Below, piece by piece: positions 1,774 to 57,000 of a DNA stretch of 64,000 bases. The stretch comes from an uncultured Fibrobacter sp. (GTDB lineage: Bacteria; Fibrobacterota; Fibrobacteria; Fibrobacterales; Fibrobacteraceae): positions 62,001 to 126,000 of the forward strand of contig NZ_CAMVDO010000007.1 of the NCBI RefSeq assembly GCF_947166265.1, written 5' to 3'. The translations under genes were made by a program, and so were the position numbers. The notes beneath the pieces were generated by a model. That model had not been told where the DNA came from. It saw only the letters and a list, made by a program, of their open reading frames with translations, and searched no databases. Position 1 is the first letter of the stretch; each line of letters opens with the position of its first letter.

Positions 1774-1935
1774 ATTCTTATCTGACTCTCTGGATGAACC
1801 CGTTGTAGTGCGTGGAGGGGGCGTTGACATGCAGGAATCGTTTAGAAATGCTACAGGCCAAAGGTGCGTAAGAATATCTGGAGCTTTTTGAAGCATCTGC
1901 GGTTGCCCCAACGCCCCAAAAGCCTATTTTGGCGG

Positions 1936-1952
1936 TTGGCACGGTATTTGCA
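1936..1952 (+). promoter_or_regulatory. Sigma-54 (-24/-12) promoter of the CBASS operon
   Basis: TTGGCACG, four bases, then TTGCA matches the RpoN consensus completely, with GG at 1938-1939 and GC at 1950-1951 separated by exactly ten bases. Transcription would start near 1962. A Shine-Dalgarno (GAGAGGAG, 1975-1982) and the capV ATG at 1987 follow. Activation would need an enhancer-binding protein. An arm GGGGCGTTG at 1818-1826 is the exact reverse complement of CAACGCCCC at 1909-1917, and may mark structure or protein sites upstream. Confidence 0.75.
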
Positions 1953-1986
1953 AAAGAAAATTACATTTAACAATGAGAGGAGTCTT

Positions 1987-2928
1987 ATGTCTGATCAAAA
2001 AATGTCCACGCCAAAGCTTCTATCCCTATCGGGAGGTGGATTCCGAGGTTTCTTTCAAGCAAACGTCCTTTCCTATATGGAATCTGAACTTGGCATGCCT
2101 TTAGCTCGCCGTTTCGCTTTGATCGCAGGAACTTCTATTGGGGGAATTAATGCTTTATGCCTTGCCTCAGAAATTCCTACAGAAAAAATGGTCAACTTCT
2201 ATAAGGATTGGGGACCTAAGATTTTCCCAAAGATAAGGTGGCCGTTGGGCCTTATAAGGCAGAAATTTTCTGACAAACAGTTGAGGGCTGCTTTGGAGCA
2301 ACTCTTAGAGGATCGGACTATTGAGGACTTGAAGCATAAGGTGTTGATACCGGCTGTTAATCTTTCTACGGGTATGCCGCAGGTTTTCAAGACACCTCAT
2401 CATGATAGTTTGAAAATGGATAAGGAATATCGTCTGGTTGATGTTGCCTTGGCAACTAGTGCCGCTCCGACCTATTTCCCTATACATAAGATGGAAAAAC
2501 TTTATGGATGGTATATGGTTGATGGGGGCTTGGTTGCGAACCATCCGGGATTGTATGCGTGCATAGAGGCCGAACGGTTCTTGAATATGGATTCTCAATC
2601 CTACAAGCTGTTGCATATAGGAACGATGAGTTCCGGCATCACGGATGTATGTAAAACGGTTAATTCTGGATTTCTGACTCGTTGGCGAGGCAAATTGTTT
2701 GATTTGTCTATTTCCGCACAAGAGGCCGCAACGGAGAATATCCTGAAATTTAAACTTGGGCCGGACCGTTATATGAAAATAGATGTAACCCCACCAAAGG
2801 AGCAGGTGAAGTTCATTGCACTAGATAAGGCGAACCCAAAGGCCCAGCAAATACTTTCACAACAAGCGCGTTCCGCCTACCAAAATGCGCGCACTGCATT
2901 GCAGAAATATATGGCGGAGGGAGAATAG
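1987..2928 (+). CDS. capV: CBASS effector: patatin-like phospholipase (CapV type)
   Basis: A 313-residue patatin-like phospholipase. The oxyanion glycines GGGFRG lie at residues 16-21, the nucleophile elbow GTSIGG puts the catalytic Ser at 50, and VDGG puts the catalytic Asp at 179. In type II CBASS, CapV is switched on by the cyclic dinucleotide made by its partner enzyme and hydrolyses inner-membrane phospholipids, killing infected cells. ATG 1987 is chosen because of the GAGAGGAG site six bases away; an upstream in-frame GTG at 1864 would run through the sigma-54 promoter. The nucleotidyltransferase gene starts three bases after the stop. Function is assigned from motifs and gene order. 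Confidence 0.9.
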   Translation: MSDQKMSTPKLLSLSGGGFRGFFQANVLSYMESELGMPLARRFALIAGTSIGGINALCLASEIPTEKMVNFYKDWGPKIFPKIRWPLGLIRQKFSDKQLRAALEQLLEDRTIEDLKHKVLIPAVNLSTGMPQVFKTPHHDSLKMDKEYRLVDVALATSAAPTYFPIHKMEKLYGWYMVDGGLVANHPGLYACIEAERFLNMDSQSYKLLHIGTMSSGITDVCKTVNSGFLTRWRGKLFDLSISAQEAATENILKFKLGPDRYMKIDVTPPKEQVKFIALDKANPKAQQILSQQARSAYQNARTALQKYMAEGE

Positions 2929-2931
2929 AGT

Positions 2932-4032
2932 ATGGAATGCAAGTGCTTGAATGATTGCTTCCGTGGATACCTTAAGGAGATAGATGTCTCGCAAGAGGTC
3001 AGGGATATATTAGAAGATGCTCGATTGAAGGTAAAGCGAGCGTTAGCTGAAGGGATTGGAGAACGGACGGCACAAGAAGGAAACCGAATTGTGCCGCGTT
3101 TTATGAGACAGGGGTCTGCTGGTTATAAAACGCAAAACATGCCTTGTTGTCCACCGGCGCAACAGGTTGATTTTGATTATGGGTGCTATCTTCCGTTGTC
3201 GTATCATGAAGATGAATCGGAACCTAGAGAAGCCGCAAACGATTTCTTTGATATGGTCGATTCCATACTTAAGCCTTTGGCTAAAGCAAATGGGTGGACC
3301 GCTGAGAAGGGGAAAAAGTCGTATTGTCTAACTCTTTCTGATGAGATTCATTTTGATGTTCCCTTGTATTCGGTGCCTGATAAGGAATTTCAAAAAATTC
3401 GGGATATGCGCCCTGTCAATGAAAGTGCGCAAGGGAGCACTTTTGCTGCTTGTGATGAACAAGAAGAAAGGGATTTGGATTGGGATGATTTGCCCACAAA
3501 GTCCATAATGCTTGCTTATCGCGAAGATAACGGTCTGTATTCCTGGAAAAAATCGGATCCACGCTTGCTGAACCTGTATTTCATGAATAAGGACGATGAC
3601 GACCGCGCTATTTATAGGATTCTAAAAGGATGGCGCGATTTCAATTTCCAAGATGGAAAGGGGCCTTCGTCCATATTCCTGATGAGCCTTGCGGAAAAGG
3701 CCAATGCAGGAAAATCATTTACCGATGATATTTCGGCAGAACTTTTGAAGGTCTTGAAATTTATCAAGTCAATGTCCTTGCCCGATGATGATGAGGTCTC
3801 TGTAGAGAATCCGGCTGATCCAAGGGAAGGTATCAAGTGCCCGACGGAAAAGTTCAAAGTGCTACAGAGTCGGGCGGGAGGCTTAGCTTCTGCCATTGCT
3901 GGCAATATGGACCCCTCTGATGCGGCGCGGTCGCAGGCTGTGCAACGTCACCTTGGAAAGAGATTCCCCGTGATAAAGGATTCGGTACAGATAAACCGTA
4001 GAGGAGCACTGCCGTCTGTGAGAGCCGGCTGA
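2932..4032 (+). CDS. dncV: CBASS cyclic-oligonucleotide synthase (DncV-like CD-NTase)
   Basis: A 366-residue cGAS/DncV-like nucleotidyltransferase. The signature GS lies at residues 61-62, the metal-binding DFD at 80-82 within a DncV-like VDFDYGCYLP block, and the third Asp at 142 in EIHFDVPLY. The expected product is a cyclic dinucleotide such as 3',3'-cGAMP, but product identity cannot be read from sequence. The protein ends in SVRAG; a terminal small residue is what the Cap2 ligase joins to target amines in characterised type II systems. It lies between capV (3-base gap) and cap2 (1-base gap), the same order as the Vibrio cholerae capV-dncV-cap2-cap3 operon. Confidence 0.9.
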   Translation: MECKCLNDCFRGYLKEIDVSQEVRDILEDARLKVKRALAEGIGERTAQEGNRIVPRFMRQGSAGYKTQNMPCCPPAQQVDFDYGCYLPLSYHEDESEPREAANDFFDMVDSILKPLAKANGWTAEKGKKSYCLTLSDEIHFDVPLYSVPDKEFQKIRDMRPVNESAQGSTFAACDEQEERDLDWDDLPTKSIMLAYREDNGLYSWKKSDPRLLNLYFMNKDDDDRAIYRILKGWRDFNFQDGKGPSSIFLMSLAEKANAGKSFTDDISAELLKVLKFIKSMSLPDDDEVSVENPADPREGIKCPTEKFKVLQSRAGGLASAIAGNMDPSDAARSQAVQRHLGKRFPVIKDSVQINRRGALPSVRAG

Positions 4033-4033
4033 T

Positions 4034-5578
4034 ATGAAAGACAGTCCCTGGGAAAATCTTAAGGATGCTCTCGCTGCATGGAACTTTATTCCTTGCAGTG
4101 GGAGTCTTTCTGCCGAATTTGAAGGGCCGATAGAATCGAGTACCTTTGGAACAGTAATTGTAAAGTTATTGTTTGATAATCAGTGCTGTACTGAATTTCC
4201 CAGGGCTTGCTTGGCTCGGCAATATGATGACCTTTGTTTTAGAAAGGTTCCCCATGTAGAGAAGGATGGCGGATTATGCTATCTTCAAAAGGGAGAATTG
4301 GTCTTTGACGCATATAGACCATACGATATGGTTGGAGTAGTTGTTGACCAAATAAAGGAATGTATTCTCGATTTACCCAAGGAAAAATATGGGGAAGAAT
4401 TTTCTAAGGAGATGGCCTCGTATTGGCCGTGTGACTATAGTGCTGGAATAAAGGATGTTGGCAAAACATCCTTGAAGATTGTTGAGGGTGATTCGTCTTC
4501 GCCTAGTTATTCGTGTCCTATTTATCCATTATCTGGCTCTGCTGACATTTCGGCTATAGGATTTCCCTTTGGTTCAATGAATGACCTGCTCCTGTTTGGC
4601 AAGGCTTCTATGGGAAAACGAGCCTTCAAACGTTACCGGAAGACTGTTTTATGGGGATGCTATTCTTCCAAGAATTTTGCTGTCGCCTTTAGAAAAAATG
4701 CTACTATCTTGGGATTGATTGTGTCGCCGTCTCGCAGCGGAAATCTTAATTGTCGGTATTTTGCGGAAGAAACCGACAATAAAATATTTTCAAGGAATGT
4801 TTTTATGGGTAATAACGCACCTTTGATGGATAAGAAGATTCTGGTTGTCGGGTGTGGCACGTTAGGGAGTAATTTGCTTCCGATGTTGGTAAAGTCCGGT
4901 GCCGGGTTTAAAAATCCATTGACTATTGTTGACCCTGATAAGTATGCGGAAGAGAATTTTTCCAGACATTATCTCGGCCTTGAATGTTTGGGAGTGAACA
5001 AGGCCCTCGCCATGAAAGCGGTTTTGGAAAACCATGTGAAAAATGAGCCAAGCAAACGCTTTAAGAATTTTAGGATTGAGTCTATCGAAAAAACGTTTGA
5101 AAATGCGTTTAAACCGGGGATGGATTTTCCTTTTGACATTGTGCTTGATACTACTGGTGATGAGTCGTTCTCGGAGTACTTGAACCGGTTCCTTGCGCAA
5201 TTACCAAAAATGCCTCTCTATATTTGTGGATATATATACGGGCGGAGTAAGGCTGTGTGCGCATCTGTTATAAGCAACTCTAAAAAGGCTTGCCTGCGTT
5301 GTGAAAAGAAGTATTTGGTAGATAATGCGGTGTTGCCTAAATTGGGTGAAGAAGATCAAACTAGGGGGACTTGCAATGCTGTTTATATTCCGTTCCCTAT
5401 AACGGCATCAGTTTCTGCGGCAAACTTGATAATGACGGCCTTGTTCAAATCCCTTGATAGAATTGGTGAAGAAGAGTCTTTATTTTGGTTCCAAGCTTGT
5501 GTGAATAATGTCTGGAATGCGATGGAGTGCGTTACTATACCCAAGGATGGTTCATGTCCAGCTTGTTGCAGAATATAG
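4034..5578 (+). CDS. cap2: CBASS Cap2: fused E2-E1 ubiquitin-like ligase
   Basis: A 514-residue bacterial E2-E1 fusion. The N-terminal half is E2-like, with a candidate catalytic Cys at 82 (KDGGLCYLQ). The C-terminal half is a ThiF/E1 adenylation domain: VGCGTLGS at 272-279, the ribose-binding Asp at 300 (IVDPD), a zinc site formed by CLRC (420-423) and CPAC (508-511), and a candidate E1 cysteine at 447 (RGTC). Known Cap2 proteins attach the C terminus of the CD-NTase to cellular targets and prime it for signalling. The gene begins one base after dncV and overlaps cap3 by 25 bases, indicating tight translational coupling. Confidence 0.88.
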   Translation: MKDSPWENLKDALAAWNFIPCSGSLSAEFEGPIESSTFGTVIVKLLFDNQCCTEFPRACLARQYDDLCFRKVPHVEKDGGLCYLQKGELVFDAYRPYDMVGVVVDQIKECILDLPKEKYGEEFSKEMASYWPCDYSAGIKDVGKTSLKIVEGDSSSPSYSCPIYPLSGSADISAIGFPFGSMNDLLLFGKASMGKRAFKRYRKTVLWGCYSSKNFAVAFRKNATILGLIVSPSRSGNLNCRYFAEETDNKIFSRNVFMGNNAPLMDKKILVVGCGTLGSNLLPMLVKSGAGFKNPLTIVDPDKYAEENFSRHYLGLECLGVNKALAMKAVLENHVKNEPSKRFKNFRIESIEKTFENAFKPGMDFPFDIVLDTTGDESFSEYLNRFLAQLPKMPLYICGYIYGRSKAVCASVISNSKKACLRCEKKYLVDNAVLPKLGEEDQTRGTCNAVYIPFPITASVSAANLIMTALFKSLDRIGEEESLFWFQACVNNVWNAMECVTIPKDGSCPACCRI

Positions 5579-6012
5579 AACCAATAATGTATTTGCCTAT
5601 AAAACAAGGTGAATCGTTCAAAGTCGTTTTCTCGAATTGGATGATGAAGAGAATTGCTCGAATACAGAAATCTGTGTTGACCAATTATGAAAGTGGAGGG
5701 ATGCTGTTCGGCGTGATTCGACCGGGTGAGTTGACGATTTCTTTTGCGACTCCTGCCTACCCAGATGATAAACGGTCAAAAACAGAATTTGTTCGCCGAG
5801 ACAAAAGACACCTGAAAGTCTTAGACTCTGTGTGGCATCGTTTTGGAGGAACAATCGGGTATTTGGGTGAGTGGCATTCTCACCCAGAATGTGATCCACA
5901 TCCGTCCGGTGTAGATAAAAAAGGGTGGAATGCAGTTGAAAAGAAATCTGGCAAGCCGATTGTATTCTTGATTATAGGAAGCGAGCAAGTTTATTTAGAG
6001 GGAAGAATTTGA
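5554..6012 (+). CDS. cap3: CBASS Cap3: JAMM/MPN deconjugating protease
   Basis: A 152-residue JAB/MPN metalloprotease with a full JAMM site: Glu46, His108 and His110 in GEWHSHP, and Asp121 in PSGVD. In type II CBASS, Cap3 cleaves the CD-NTase-target bond made by Cap2 and so damps the system. The start is ATG 5554, with AAGGA at 5543-5547 inside the end of cap2; ATG 5587, just after the cap2 stop, has no ribosome binding site. The next gene begins 94 bases downstream, so this is probably the last core CBASS gene. Confidence 0.88.
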   Translation: MSSLLQNIEPIMYLPIKQGESFKVVFSNWMMKRIARIQKSVLTNYESGGMLFGVIRPGELTISFATPAYPDDKRSKTEFVRRDKRHLKVLDSVWHRFGGTIGYLGEWHSHPECDPHPSGVDKKGWNAVEKKSGKPIVFLIIGSEQVYLEGRI

Positions 6013-6106: not shown

Positions 6107-6376
6107 ATGAATACTTTAGAAGTGTTTGTTACGGAAGTTATCATTGAAGACGTTGTAACAAAGGCAAAAATGGAAATTGGTCACTACGGGCCTCAACCGA
6201 AGGAATCTGATATTCATATAATTTTTGTTGCATCTTCGCCTAAAAAAAGTGTATTGTCTGTTTTAATGGGGGCTTATACGAAATGGCATAAGTCTTGCCC
6301 GAATCGTGTGTTTAGACTAGTTCAGGATTGTCGCTTTACAAATAAAGACAATATCATTGCCGTAGAGACTGTTTGA
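6107..6376 (+). CDS. Hypothetical protein downstream of CBASS (89 aa)
   Basis: An unrecognised 89-residue soluble protein with alternating beta/alpha character. ATG 6107 has AAAGGAG at 6095-6101, five bases upstream, so I discard the longer frame from 6032. The 94-base gap after cap3 shows no obvious terminator, so read-through from the CBASS promoter is possible. It could be a CBASS accessory gene, or the first gene of whatever once occupied the A+T-rich gap that follows. Confidence 0.55.
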   Translation: MNTLEVFVTEVIIEDVVTKAKMEIGHYGPQPKESDIHIIFVASSPKKSVLSVLMGAYTKWHKSCPNRVFRLVQDCRFTNKDNIIAVETV

Positions 6377-53192: not shown

Positions 53193-53209
53193 TTGGCACG
53201 TTCTTTGCA
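53193..53209 (+). promoter_or_regulatory. Sigma-54 (-24/-12) promoter of dapF
   Basis: TTGGCACG, TTCT, TTGCA: the same consensus as at 1936, with GG and GC ten bases apart. Predicted start near 53220, 33 bases before ATG 53253. Confidence 0.78.
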
Positions 53210-53252
53210 AATAGAGGGCAGTAAAATAAAACTGTATCTATGGAACGTGCAT

Positions 53253-54116
53253 ATGAACTTTTCAAAATGGACCGGGTTGGGTAACGATTTCGTTCTCCTG
53301 GAACCGGGTGAGTCATTAGATTTCAGCAACGGATTTGAACAGCGTGTCATTCAGCTTTGCGACCGTCGCTTTGGCATTGGTGCCGATGGCGTGGTGATTG
53401 TAACGCCGATGGATGGCGACGGCTGTTTGGTTTTGCCTCAACTTCAGGGGAATGCTTCTCCCTCGAAGGCGGTGGCGAATGGAATTGATTTTGAAATGCG
53501 CATCTTTAATGCCGATGGTTCCGAGGCGGCTATGTGCGGAAACGCTACACGCTGTGTGGCGAAATACATCCGCAGTCGCGGACTTGCTAAAGATGGCAAT
53601 ACTAAAGTGTTTAATCTGCATACCAAGAGTGGCTTGGTGAAGCCCGCCCTTTTGGATGATGGTCGCGTGTGCGTGGATATGGGACTTCCGAGGAATTTCC
53701 TGGGTTCGATCAAGCTCACGGCAGACAGTTTTGACTTTACCGCTGAGACCGTTTCGATGGGAAATCCGCATGCGGTGATTTTTGTGGATGATATCGAAAA
53801 GATTCAGCTGGAAAAGTGGGGAAGCATCCTCGAAGTAGATAAGCAGTTCCCCGATCGCTGTAACATTGAATTTGCGCAGGTGGTGACGCCCACCCAAATC
53901 CGCATGCGGGTTTGGGAACGAGGCTGTGGCATTACGATGGCTTGTGGTACCGGCAGTTGCGCCACGCTCGTTGCGGCCCAGCGCACGGGCCGCGTGGGCG
54001 TCGAAGCAGATGTTGTTCTCGATGGCGGCGTCCTCCACATCAAGCACGAAGAAGGTGGCCCCGTCCTCATGACCGGCCCTGCACAGGAAGTATTTATGGG
54101 AAAAATTGAGGTATGA
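53253..54116 (+). CDS. dapF: Diaminopimelate epimerase
   Basis: A 287-residue DapF: interconverts LL- and meso-diaminopimelate for lysine and peptidoglycan synthesis. The two catalytic cysteines are in MCGNATRC and GITMACGTGSCAT. The N-terminal FSKWTGLGNDFVLLE is typical, and a short insertion (about 55-75) precedes IDFEMRIFNADGSEAAMCGN. The longer frame from 53193 reads through the sigma-54 promoter and is rejected. dapL, the enzyme making its LL substrate, follows. Confidence 0.95.
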   Translation: MNFSKWTGLGNDFVLLEPGESLDFSNGFEQRVIQLCDRRFGIGADGVVIVTPMDGDGCLVLPQLQGNASPSKAVANGIDFEMRIFNADGSEAAMCGNATRCVAKYIRSRGLAKDGNTKVFNLHTKSGLVKPALLDDGRVCVDMGLPRNFLGSIKLTADSFDFTAETVSMGNPHAVIFVDDIEKIQLEKWGSILEVDKQFPDRCNIEFAQVVTPTQIRMRVWERGCGITMACGTGSCATLVAAQRTGRVGVEADVVLDGGVLHIKHEEGGPVLMTGPAQEVFMGKIEV

Positions 54117-54204
54117 GGACGCTCGTAAACTCGCTCTGAGGACGGGCTTCGCCCTCTGAGCATCGAGAAAGACTATTCAAAACTTCACATTCCACACTGT
54201 TAAT

Positions 54205-54238
54205 CACTGTCTACTTCCAACTTCCAACTTCCTACTAA
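54205..54238. repeat. Heptamer-type tract (CTTCCAA/CTTCCTA) upstream of dapL
   Basis: CTACTTCCAACTTCCAACTT and CCTACT, five bases before ATG 54243. Same unit as the tract before thyA. Confidence 0.7.
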
Positions 54239-54242
54239 CACT

Positions 54243-55451
54243 ATGAATTCATCTATCATCAACACCAATTACGATTTGCTGCCTGGCAGCTACCTTTTCT
54301 CTACTATTGCCCAGAAAATCAAGGAATATCAGGCGAAGAAACCCGATGCCGACATTATCCGTCTGGGTATTGGCGACGTGACCACGCCCTTGATTCCGGA
54401 AGTCATCAAGGCCATGCACAAGGCCGTGGATGAAATGGCAGAAAAGGGGACCTTCCGCGGTTACGGCCCCGAACAGGGCTACGATTTCGTGCGCGAGTCG
54501 ATTGTCCGTGGCGAATACACCGCCCGTGGCATCGAAATGGACCCGGACGATATCTTCGTTAGTGACGGCTCCAAGTGCGATGTGGCGAACATTCAAGAGC
54601 TTTTTACAGAAAATGTAAAGATTGCGATTCCGGACCCGGTTTATCCGGTCTATTTGGACTCCAATGTGATGGCAGGCCGTGCTGGCGTGTTGCAGAGTGA
54701 CGGACATTTTTCTAAGGTGACATACCTTGCTTCGACCGCCGAGAATAATTTCCAGCCGGATTTGCCTAAGGAACCGGTGCAGCTGATTTACCTTTGCAGC
54801 CCGAATAACCCGACCGGTACGGTGCTCAGCCGCGAAACCTTGCAGAAGTTCGTGAACTACGCCAACGAAAACGGAGCCTTGATCCTGTTCGACGGAGCCT
54901 ACAACTGCTACATCCAGGACGAAACGCTGCCGCATTCCATTTTCGAAATTCCGGGTGCACGCACTTGCGCCATTGAATTCCGCAGCTTTAGTAAGACCGC
55001 CGGCTTTACGGGCGTGCGTTGCGCCTACACGGTGATCCCGCACGAACTTTCGAAACTCCGTGCCATGTGGAACCGTCGCCAGTGCACCAAGTTTAACGGC
55101 GTGAGCTACGTGACGCAACGTGCCGCCGAGGCCATTTACAGTCCGATTGGCTGGCAACAGACCAAGGATGTGATTGCCGGTTACATGAAGACGGCGAAGG
55201 TCATTCGTCAGGAACTTTCTGCCGCCGGTTACACGGTGTTCGGTGGTGAACATGCCCCGTACATCTGGTGGAAAATCGCAGATGGCGAAAAATCCTTCGA
55301 TTTCTTTGACCGCCTGCTTGCTACCTGCGAAGTCGTGGGTACACCGGGCAGTGGCTTTGGCCCCTGCGGCGAAGGATACTTCCGCCTGACCGCCTTTGGT
55401 GACTATGAACGCACCTGCGAAGCCCTCAAGAGAATCAGGGAAAGACTCTAA
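54243..55451 (+). CDS. dapL: LL-diaminopimelate aminotransferase
   Basis: A 402-residue PLP enzyme of the DapL type, which converts tetrahydrodipicolinate to LL-DAP in one step and bypasses succinylase or acetylase routes. Features: INTNYDLLPGSYLFSTIAQK, the GIGDVTTPL and RGYGPEQGYDF motifs, SDGSKCDVANIQ, the PNNPTG and the PLP Lys in SFSKTAGFTGVRC. It lies between dapF and the sigma-54 activator gene. No ribosome binding site is evident; the heptamer tract occupies that place. Confidence 0.94.
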   Translation: MNSSIINTNYDLLPGSYLFSTIAQKIKEYQAKKPDADIIRLGIGDVTTPLIPEVIKAMHKAVDEMAEKGTFRGYGPEQGYDFVRESIVRGEYTARGIEMDPDDIFVSDGSKCDVANIQELFTENVKIAIPDPVYPVYLDSNVMAGRAGVLQSDGHFSKVTYLASTAENNFQPDLPKEPVQLIYLCSPNNPTGTVLSRETLQKFVNYANENGALILFDGAYNCYIQDETLPHSIFEIPGARTCAIEFRSFSKTAGFTGVRCAYTVIPHELSKLRAMWNRRQCTKFNGVSYVTQRAAEAIYSPIGWQQTKDVIAGYMKTAKVIRQELSAAGYTVFGGEHAPYIWWKIADGEKSFDFFDRLLATCEVVGTPGSGFGPCGEGYFRLTAFGDYERTCEALKRIRERL

Positions 55452-55479
55452 CCCTCCAATCAATTACTATCTTATGTCC

Positions 55480-57000
55480 ATGCCTTCTTCTATCGGTCCA
55501 GAGATTTCGGTCATTCAAAAGATCAGCGTTGCGATTATCCACGAACGCAATGTTGAAAAATTGCTCGAAAATGTTCTGGGCATCTTGGAGTCCGAACTTG
55601 GTATGCTGCGCGGAACTTTCGCGTTGCTCTTTGGCGACACCCTGAAAATCGAGGCGTCACGTGGGCTTGACGAATCAGAAAAACAGCGCGGCTCTTACCG
55701 AATGGGTGAGGGCATTACGGGACATGTGGCTGAACGTGGTATCAGTCACGTTATTCCTGATTTGCGCAAGGATTCTCGCTTCTTGAACCGCACCGGGAGC
55801 CGCCATTATGAAAATCAGGTGGCATTCATTTGCGTGCCGCTGATTCATGACGGTCAAGTCATCGGAACCCTTTCGATTGACCGCCCCGTAGACGGTTCTA
55901 CTGATTTGGACCGCGACGTGGCCTTGCTCGAAATTATCGCGAACATCACGGGTGATGCCGCAAACGAATGCATTGAACTTCACGGTGAACGCGAGGCGAT
56001 GCTCGAAGAAAACCGCAAGCTCCGCGACATGCTTTCGAATAACCCCGGCGAACTGGTGGGTAACTGCCGCGAAATGCGTCAGGTGTACGAACAGGTGCGT
56101 CAGGTTGCCCCGAGCGATGCGACGGTCCTTATCCGCGGCGGTAGCGGTACGGGTAAGGAAATGATTGCCCGTGCGATTGTGAATCTGTCCGAAAGAAAGG
56201 ATAAGCCGTTCATTATCCTCAACTGTGCGGCTCTTCCTGAAAACTTGGTCGAAAGTGAACTCTTCGGTCATGAAAAGGGAGCCTTTACGGGAGCCTTGAA
56301 CCGCCGTATCGGGCGTGCTGAGGCTGCTAATGGGGGAACGCTTTTCCTCGACGAAATCGGTGACCTCACCATGCAGACGCAGGTCAAGCTCTTGCGTTTC
56401 TTGCAGGAACGTACCTTTAGCCGCGTGGGTAGCAACGAAGAATTGCATTCCGACGTACGATTCCTAGCGGCCACTAGCCGAAACCTGGAAGAACTCATTG
56501 CGCAGGGCAAGTTCCGCGAAGACTTGTTCTACCGTTTGAATATTTTCCCGATAACGATGCCTGACCTTGCAAAACGTAAGTCCGACATCATCCTGCTTGC
56601 AGAACACTTTATCGAGAAGATGAACCTGCGCTACGGCAAGAAAGTCGCACGCCTTTCAACAACGGCGATCAACCTGCTCATGAGCTACCATTGGCCGGGT
56701 AACGTGCGTGAACTTGAAAACTGTATGGAACGCGGTGTTCTGACGGCAAGCGATGACTGTATCCACAGCTATAATTTGCCGCCTTCGCTGCAGACGAGCT
56801 TGAGTGTCGGAACCACGGGTACTCCCAGCGATAAGATTGCGCCTCTCGAAGTGATGATGGACAACTACGAACGTGAAATCATTACTGAGGCTATCAAGCG
56901 AAATGACGGGAATATCTCGGCGGCCGGTCGCGACCTGGGCGTGTCTCCGCGCATGATGAATTACCGCATGAACAAGCTCGGAATCAAGTCCGGACACTAG
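55480..57000 (+). CDS. NifA-like sigma-54 activator (GAF, AAA+, Fis-type HTH)
   Basis: A 506-residue enhancer-binding protein. Residues about 10-165 are a GAF sensor domain, about 195-420 the AAA+ domain with Walker A GGSGTGKEM, ESELFGHEKGAFTGA (GAFTGA loop that contacts sigma-54), GTLFLDEIGDL Walker B, and about 455-500 a Fis-type DNA-binding domain. The GAF ligand is unknown. ATG 55480 is six bases from TATCTT, similar to the leaderless set; ATG 55474 is the alternative. The dapF promoter upstream is sigma-54, so local autoregulation is likely. Confidence 0.9.
   Translation: MPSSIGPEISVIQKISVAIIHERNVEKLLENVLGILESELGMLRGTFALLFGDTLKIEASRGLDESEKQRGSYRMGEGITGHVAERGISHVIPDLRKDSRFLNRTGSRHYENQVAFICVPLIHDGQVIGTLSIDRPVDGSTDLDRDVALLEIIANITGDAANECIELHGEREAMLEENRKLRDMLSNNPGELVGNCREMRQVYEQVRQVAPSDATVLIRGGSGTGKEMIARAIVNLSERKDKPFIILNCAALPENLVESELFGHEKGAFTGALNRRIGRAEAANGGTLFLDEIGDLTMQTQVKLLRFLQERTFSRVGSNEELHSDVRFLAATSRNLEELIAQGKFREDLFYRLNIFPITMPDLAKRKSDIILLAEHFIEKMNLRYGKKVARLSTTAINLLMSYHWPGNVRELENCMERGVLTASDDCIHSYNLPPSLQTSLSVGTTGTPSDKIAPLEVMMDNYEREIITEAIKRNDGNISAAGRDLGVSPRMMNYRMNKLGIKSGH

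Follow-up and report, generated by a model that had tools for sequence, protein, structure and literature searches.

Genomic evidence indicates that a type II CBASS operon of an uncultured Fibrobacter sp. is preceded by a perfect match to a sigma-54 promoter, and we consider it likely that this operon is a sigma-54-gated, stress-inducible abortive defence, although its activator dependence, low uninduced expression, inducer, start site and rpoN dependence are all inferred from sequence. The operon lies in a window of 64 kb (the whole stretch of DNA analysed, G000:C7:62001-126000) from a 3.77-Mb, 89-contig assembly. Perfect sites of the same kind stand just upstream of most related CBASS and TIR-caspase operons among 111 Fibrobacteraceae genomes, several of them accompanied by the enhancer sites of heat-shock genes.

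The operon itself (positions 1987-6012, + strand) is an intact type II CBASS encoding CapV, a DncV-like CD-NTase, Cap2 and Cap3, as identified by Pfam, PADLOC CBASS models and solved relatives. Specifically, capV (1987..2928) encodes a patatin phospholipase effector, predicted to be activated by cGAMP (PF01734, E=1e-29; PADLOC CBASS effector, 1.9e-96; PDB CapV/patatin, 7.5e-49), in which the GGGFRG, GTSIGG and DGG motifs are intact in alignment with solved CapV (9wn0/8zr9) and the Ser-Asp dyad required of the effector is present by Pfam, PADLOC and PDB comparison. It is followed by the CD-NTase gene (2932..4032; PF21654, 3.3e-18, and PF21713; DncV 4txy, 7.3e-25, catalytic residues aligned), whose product retains the GS and the Asp triad, with RQGS, DFD and HFDVP aligning with DncV, and ends in Gly. 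A terminal Gly on the cyclase is expected of a Cap2 substrate. The E1-E2 fusion gene cap2 (4034..5578; PF00899, PF14461; PADLOC E1-E2, 8.8e-60; Cap2 7tsx) carries the signature GCGTLGSN plus cysteines, and the JAB/JAMM isopeptidase gene cap3 (about 5554..6012; PF14464; PADLOC JAB, 6.7e-35; 9ild) the signature EWHSHP-N4-HPSGVD. These comparisons confirm a complete type II CBASS as far as sequence can, with phage protection and cyclic nucleotide production remaining inferences. Gene order, effector type, cyclase clade, E1-E2, JAB and catalytic motifs are those of the Vibrio cholerae system (CapV-DncV-Cap2-Cap3), from which the Fibrobacter locus differs in having a sigma-54 front end with enhancer-like sites and no regulator gene adjoining the operon; inside the cassette, no activator gene was found. 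Two small ORFs (6107-6376 and 1570-1773, 89 and 67 aa) flank the cassette outside the region of homology with its sister in genome G027 and have no Pfam or PADLOC match.

The predicted -24/-12 promoter, TTGGCACGGTATTTGCA (TTGGCACG-N4-TTGCA; 1936..1952, + strand), meets the membership pattern TGGCAY-N5-TTGCW with GG-N10-GC and stands 34 bases before the capV ATG. It forms the end of a mobile leader (1826..1955, +) that also carries the enhancer-like sites. The preliminary description had named both the operon, with Vibrio-like gene order and intact catalytic motifs, and a perfect sigma-54 promoter with a GG/GC spacing of ten; the first call agrees with the Pfam, PADLOC and structural alignments, and the second is upheld at exactly 1936-1952 by a site that exceeds chance expectation. 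No sigma-70-like site was detected between 1555 and capV with the E. coli consensus, from which Fibrobacter sigma-70 promoters may differ. A longer, GTG-initiated CapV beginning at 1864 would span the promoter; it is ruled out, and the leader is considered non-coding, because the leader differs from its sister by frame-breaking 1-base indels and the PADLOC models also begin at the 1987 start. Other candidate roles for the leader were rejected as well: Rfam was empty and folding no better than that of shuffled sequences (structured RNA or integron attC), the arms GGGGCGTTG/CAACGCCCC (about 1817/1909) are not kept in the sister leader, the leader is single-copy within the genome (genomic repeat), and the window contains no tRNA (tRNA-linked insertion).

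The source genome is equipped to use such a promoter, encoding rpoN (E=3e-51) and six strong Sigma54_activat proteins (enhancer-binding proteins). The perfect site TGGCACGNNNNTTGCW occurs 15 times genome-wide (2 times for the reversed-pattern control), mostly just upstream of genes. By names read from their translations, except for CBASS, these genes include dnaK, grpE, groES, Hsp20, htpG, secA and a Clp ATPase on the one hand, and glutamate synthase, a PII-like protein, a glutamine synthetase-like protein, dapF and a few others on the other. Two of the perfect matches fall in the window; the one not in front of CBASS (53193-53209) precedes genes for a diaminopimelate epimerase and an LL-DAP aminotransferase-like protein, which are followed by a NifA-like GAF-AAA-HTH activator (55396-57000), and the region 53193-57000 is probably a nitrogen-class sigma-54 cluster. 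As a measure of background, an 820-kb sample of genome G102 contains 8 sites matching at 16/16 positions in 1.64 Mb of strand, or about 1 per 205 kb, mostly in promoter-like positions; at this density, a given operon would have a site within 300 bases by chance with a probability of about 0.0015. In G102 (C1, L199), three near-identical perfect sites occur within 4.5 kb (3647, 6966 and 8141), with a short ORF behind each; two of these ORFs begin MSGKLP.

Conservation of the -24/-12 element in related loci, which the preliminary description had singled out for checking, is borne out: the sister cassette has an identical core, and the element is met again at further CBASS and TIR-caspase loci of the family, a wider pattern with Thoeris operons and heat-shock enhancer sites that the preliminary description had not noted. 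The sister cassette in G027 (L039), a genome identical to Fibrobacter sp. UBA7003 (L029), is 92% identical over 1831-6012, with homology stopping at the Cap3 stop codon, and is located elsewhere, next to an HlyD/GAF gene that lies about 5 kb past the equivalent of the right end of the window; the window cassette is about 67 kb from that spot. The two leaders are 83% identical with indels, and 21 bases (GCGGTTGGCACGGTATTTGCA) are unchanged. In G072 (C57), a leader 84% identical to window positions 1826-1955, the match ending right after the -12 GC and the promoter being invariant, is found at the same HlyD/GAF spot, where the downstream genes encode not CBASS but a ThsB-type TIR, a caspase-like protease and a second TIR-like protein. 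In this genome and others, TIR and caspase genes share one operon (PF08937 and PF00656; PADLOC ThsB and caspase), an architecture that we take to be type IV Thoeris, with nucleotide activation of the protease inferred. In five genomes that share the HlyD neighbour (G056, G059, G096, G094 and the source genome), the leader is missing from this spot and the cargo is different or absent, from which we conclude that the leader moves together with the defence genes. G030 in turn encodes a TIR 99% identical to that of G072 behind a different leader in which the 16-base core TGGCACGGTATTTGCA is kept, which suggests that G072 combines a CBASS leader with a Thoeris operon, the two inferred to be fused at the promoter core. 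The HlyD/GAF position (L039 at about 9180, L040 at about 2370, L044, L045, L048 and L049) appears as a hotspot at which near-identical genomes carry different cargo, including CBASS, TIR-caspase operons, a SIR2-like gene and others.

Across the 111 Fibrobacteraceae genomes, searched with CD-NTase for CBASS and with ThsB_TIR for Thoeris, sigma-54 sites were scored as TGGYAY-N5-TTGCW with fixed GG and GC, matching at 16/16 positions on the coding strand just upstream. The sample is small, comprising five CBASS loci and six TIR-caspase loci, some with common ancestry. Besides those of the window and G027, CBASS loci were found in G015, which belongs to another genus and encodes a Cap15 effector, in G019, with a SAVED-HNH effector and a 4-fold beta flower gene ahead of it, and in G005 (C338, L198; 5357-11765), where a CD-NTase gene and genes for predicted membrane proteins sit between hsdM and hsdS of a type I restriction locus. 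ThsB_TIR was detected in 19 genomes, and the TIR operons of six (G030, G072, G075, G086 C45, G102 and G070) include a caspase. Perfect sites precede four of the five CBASS loci, representing three effector types, and all six TIR-caspase operons; the G005 CBASS has none. By contrast, none of 16 ThsB regions without a caspase contains a 16/16 site anywhere in 526 kb of strand (10/11 versus 0/16; Fisher p=1.3e-6, or 2e-5 when related promoters are collapsed by lineage). The best reading of these sequence patterns, which we propose, is that the CBASS and TIR-caspase operons of the family are as a rule headed by sigma-54 promoters. A 13-mer, TCGGCAATGGTGC, is also common to the G019 CBASS (L181) and the G102 TIR-caspase operon (L177), which belong to different genera; it stands 15-35 bases after the -12 element, in what would be the initial transcribed region, and could form a small hairpin (GGCA-ATGG-TGCC).

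In Fibrobacter, dnaK, grpE, groES, hsp20, htpG and secA are preceded by sigma-54 promoters (L002-L016, L081-L110), and a dyad GTTTC-N5-GAAAC lies upstream at the dnaK, groES, grpE and secA promoters. At least one dyad is present in each of the 29 dnaK promoters examined, usually as a pair at -96/-47 or -85/-36, two registers shifted jointly by one helical turn. Dyads matching at 9/10 or more positions were found upstream of the sigma-54 sites of seven defence loci, namely the Thoeris operons of G030, G075, G086, G102 and G070 and the CBASS loci of G015 and G019. In 542 kb of control strand, weak combinations (15/16 with 8/10) turned up just twice, and among the 16/16 sites of the G102 sample the Thoeris one alone has a heat-shock dyad. 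The window leader contains two putative activator sites that resemble each other: site 1, GTTTAGAAATGCTAC (1840..1854), at -97 from TGG and identical in all three leaders, and site 2, GGAGCTTTTTGAAGC (1880..1894; GAAGCATTTTGAAAC in G027 and G072), at -57 and 40 bases from site 1. The position of site 1 equals those of the dnaK (-96) and groES (-97) enhancers. As heat-shock dyads, these two sites were dropped: the leader scores 4.6 on a matrix built from heat-shock sites, against 13.4-22.7 for known sites, a score also attained by 5-13% of matched random stretches of 130 bases, for which reason the window CBASS is not called a member of the heat-shock class. The site-1 consensus yielded nothing convincing at the other sigma-54 promoters of the genome, with no match of at least 13/15 at nitrogen-type promoters. 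The leader may carry a diverged site of the heat-shock activator or a site for another activator; the weakest of our inferences, that the heat-shock activator acts on these diverged sites, is held only tentatively.

Several alternative explanations have to be weighed against a stress-responsive sigma-54 switch. The most serious accepts sigma-54 dependence and assigns the promoter to an activator of another class (a nitrogen, GAF-type or receiver-type enhancer-binding protein) or to a dedicated one, making heat shock irrelevant to the window operon. This possibility, quite open in our view if a little doubtful, draws support from the failed matrix score, from the choice among six enhancer-binding proteins, including the NifA-like one within the window, and from the perfect sites that also precede the glnA, gltB and glnB homologues. 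It has to contend with the dnaK/groES-like position of site 1, with the clear heat-shock dyads of close analogues in the family, and with the lack of sequence shared between nitrogen-type promoters and sites 1 and 2.

Two further alternatives remain. That the leader is merely the resident promoter of an integration hotspot, its sigma-54 link an accident of location, would explain why the G027 CBASS and the G072 TIR-caspase operon have near-identical leaders at one spot with 94% identical flanks; we disfavour it as improbable given that the window cassette retains the leader far from that spot, that it is absent from genomes in which the HlyD gene adjoins other cargo, that G030 has a different leader with the same core in front of the same TIR, and that two further lineages have unrelated CBASS with separate sigma-54 sites. 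More improbable still is a fortuitous -24/-12 match, with CBASS transcribed from a sigma-70-type promoter or by read-through: transcript data are lacking and the consensus used may not fit Fibrobacter sigma-70 promoters, but a perfect site with a conserved core, shared by nearly all analogous operons and no control region, is hard to reconcile with a background this sparse.

A sigma-54 closed complex is inert until an AAA+ enhancer-binding activator remodels the promoter, which makes expression dependent on a remote activator and gives one of the tightest off-states known in bacteria. Under the sigma-54-gated reading, RNA polymerase-sigma54 would transcribe CBASS from 1936-1952, with the closed complex waiting until an enhancer-binding protein at the paired sites 1840-1854/1880-1894 opens the promoter. 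Transcription would remain off or low until the signal of this activator arrives, probably protein-damage or infection stress; stress-raised expression is most likely because most CBASS and TIR-caspase loci of the family carry the heat-shock enhancer dyad. Infection would then activate the CD-NTase, primed by Cap2 and reversed by Cap3, and the cyclic dinucleotide would switch on CapV, whose phospholipase activity would damage the membrane and kill the cell, as in known type II CBASS. The system would thus have two locks in series, expression first and enzyme activation second.

How lethal defence systems stay quiet and then rise is an open question. The described controllers CapW/BrxR, CapH+CapP and CapK+CapS are repressors encoded beside defence operons and relieved by DNA damage (PMC9122588, PMC13373217). 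The Fibrobacter loci resemble them in placing defence under transcriptional control by a stress signal, with one controller type for CBASS and type IV Thoeris, and differ in that control is predicted to be positive, to involve sigma-54 and a remotely encoded activator, and to point to protein stress. For Bacteroidota and Planctomycetota, a published study describes grpE, groES and dnaK as sigma-54-dependent (PMC12316311). This lends credibility to the heat-shock promoters of Fibrobacter, and what is new here is the defence targets; that study reports no defence operons as targets, its sigma-54 'defence' category consisting of ABC transporters, and Fibrobacter is absent from its text. RtcR-type (CARF) sigma-54 activators have been linked to CoCoNuTs restriction loci, where the activator-like protein may have another role (PMC11090510). 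CoCoNuTs were rejected as a precedent for sigma-54 CBASS, since only RtcR-like CARF proteins are noted there; an activator-like protein is part of those loci, whereas the window locus has the promoter and no activator. The preliminary description knew of no sigma-54-controlled CBASS, and open-access literature searches for CBASS with sigma-54/RpoN likewise found none; nor did the open-access literature yield a report of RpoN-controlled Thoeris, and novelty is provisional. The best reading is a new wiring of known systems.

Because related CBASS and TIR-caspase operons share a promoter type, several with heat-shock enhancer sites, the kill-the-cell defences of Fibrobacteraceae are probably switched on through a stress regulon. 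A broader hypothesis, attractive though not yet one we would back, is that the sigma-54 heat-shock regulon has absorbed abortive immunity, such that chaperones, CBASS of three effector types and caspase-type Thoeris share one enhancer-binding protein and mobile defence cargo is exchanged at sigma-54 promoter cores. If chaperones and abortive immunity do share an activator, immunity would gain a second general alarm in the protein stress caused by phage, and newly acquired defence systems would arrive pre-wired to the stress response.
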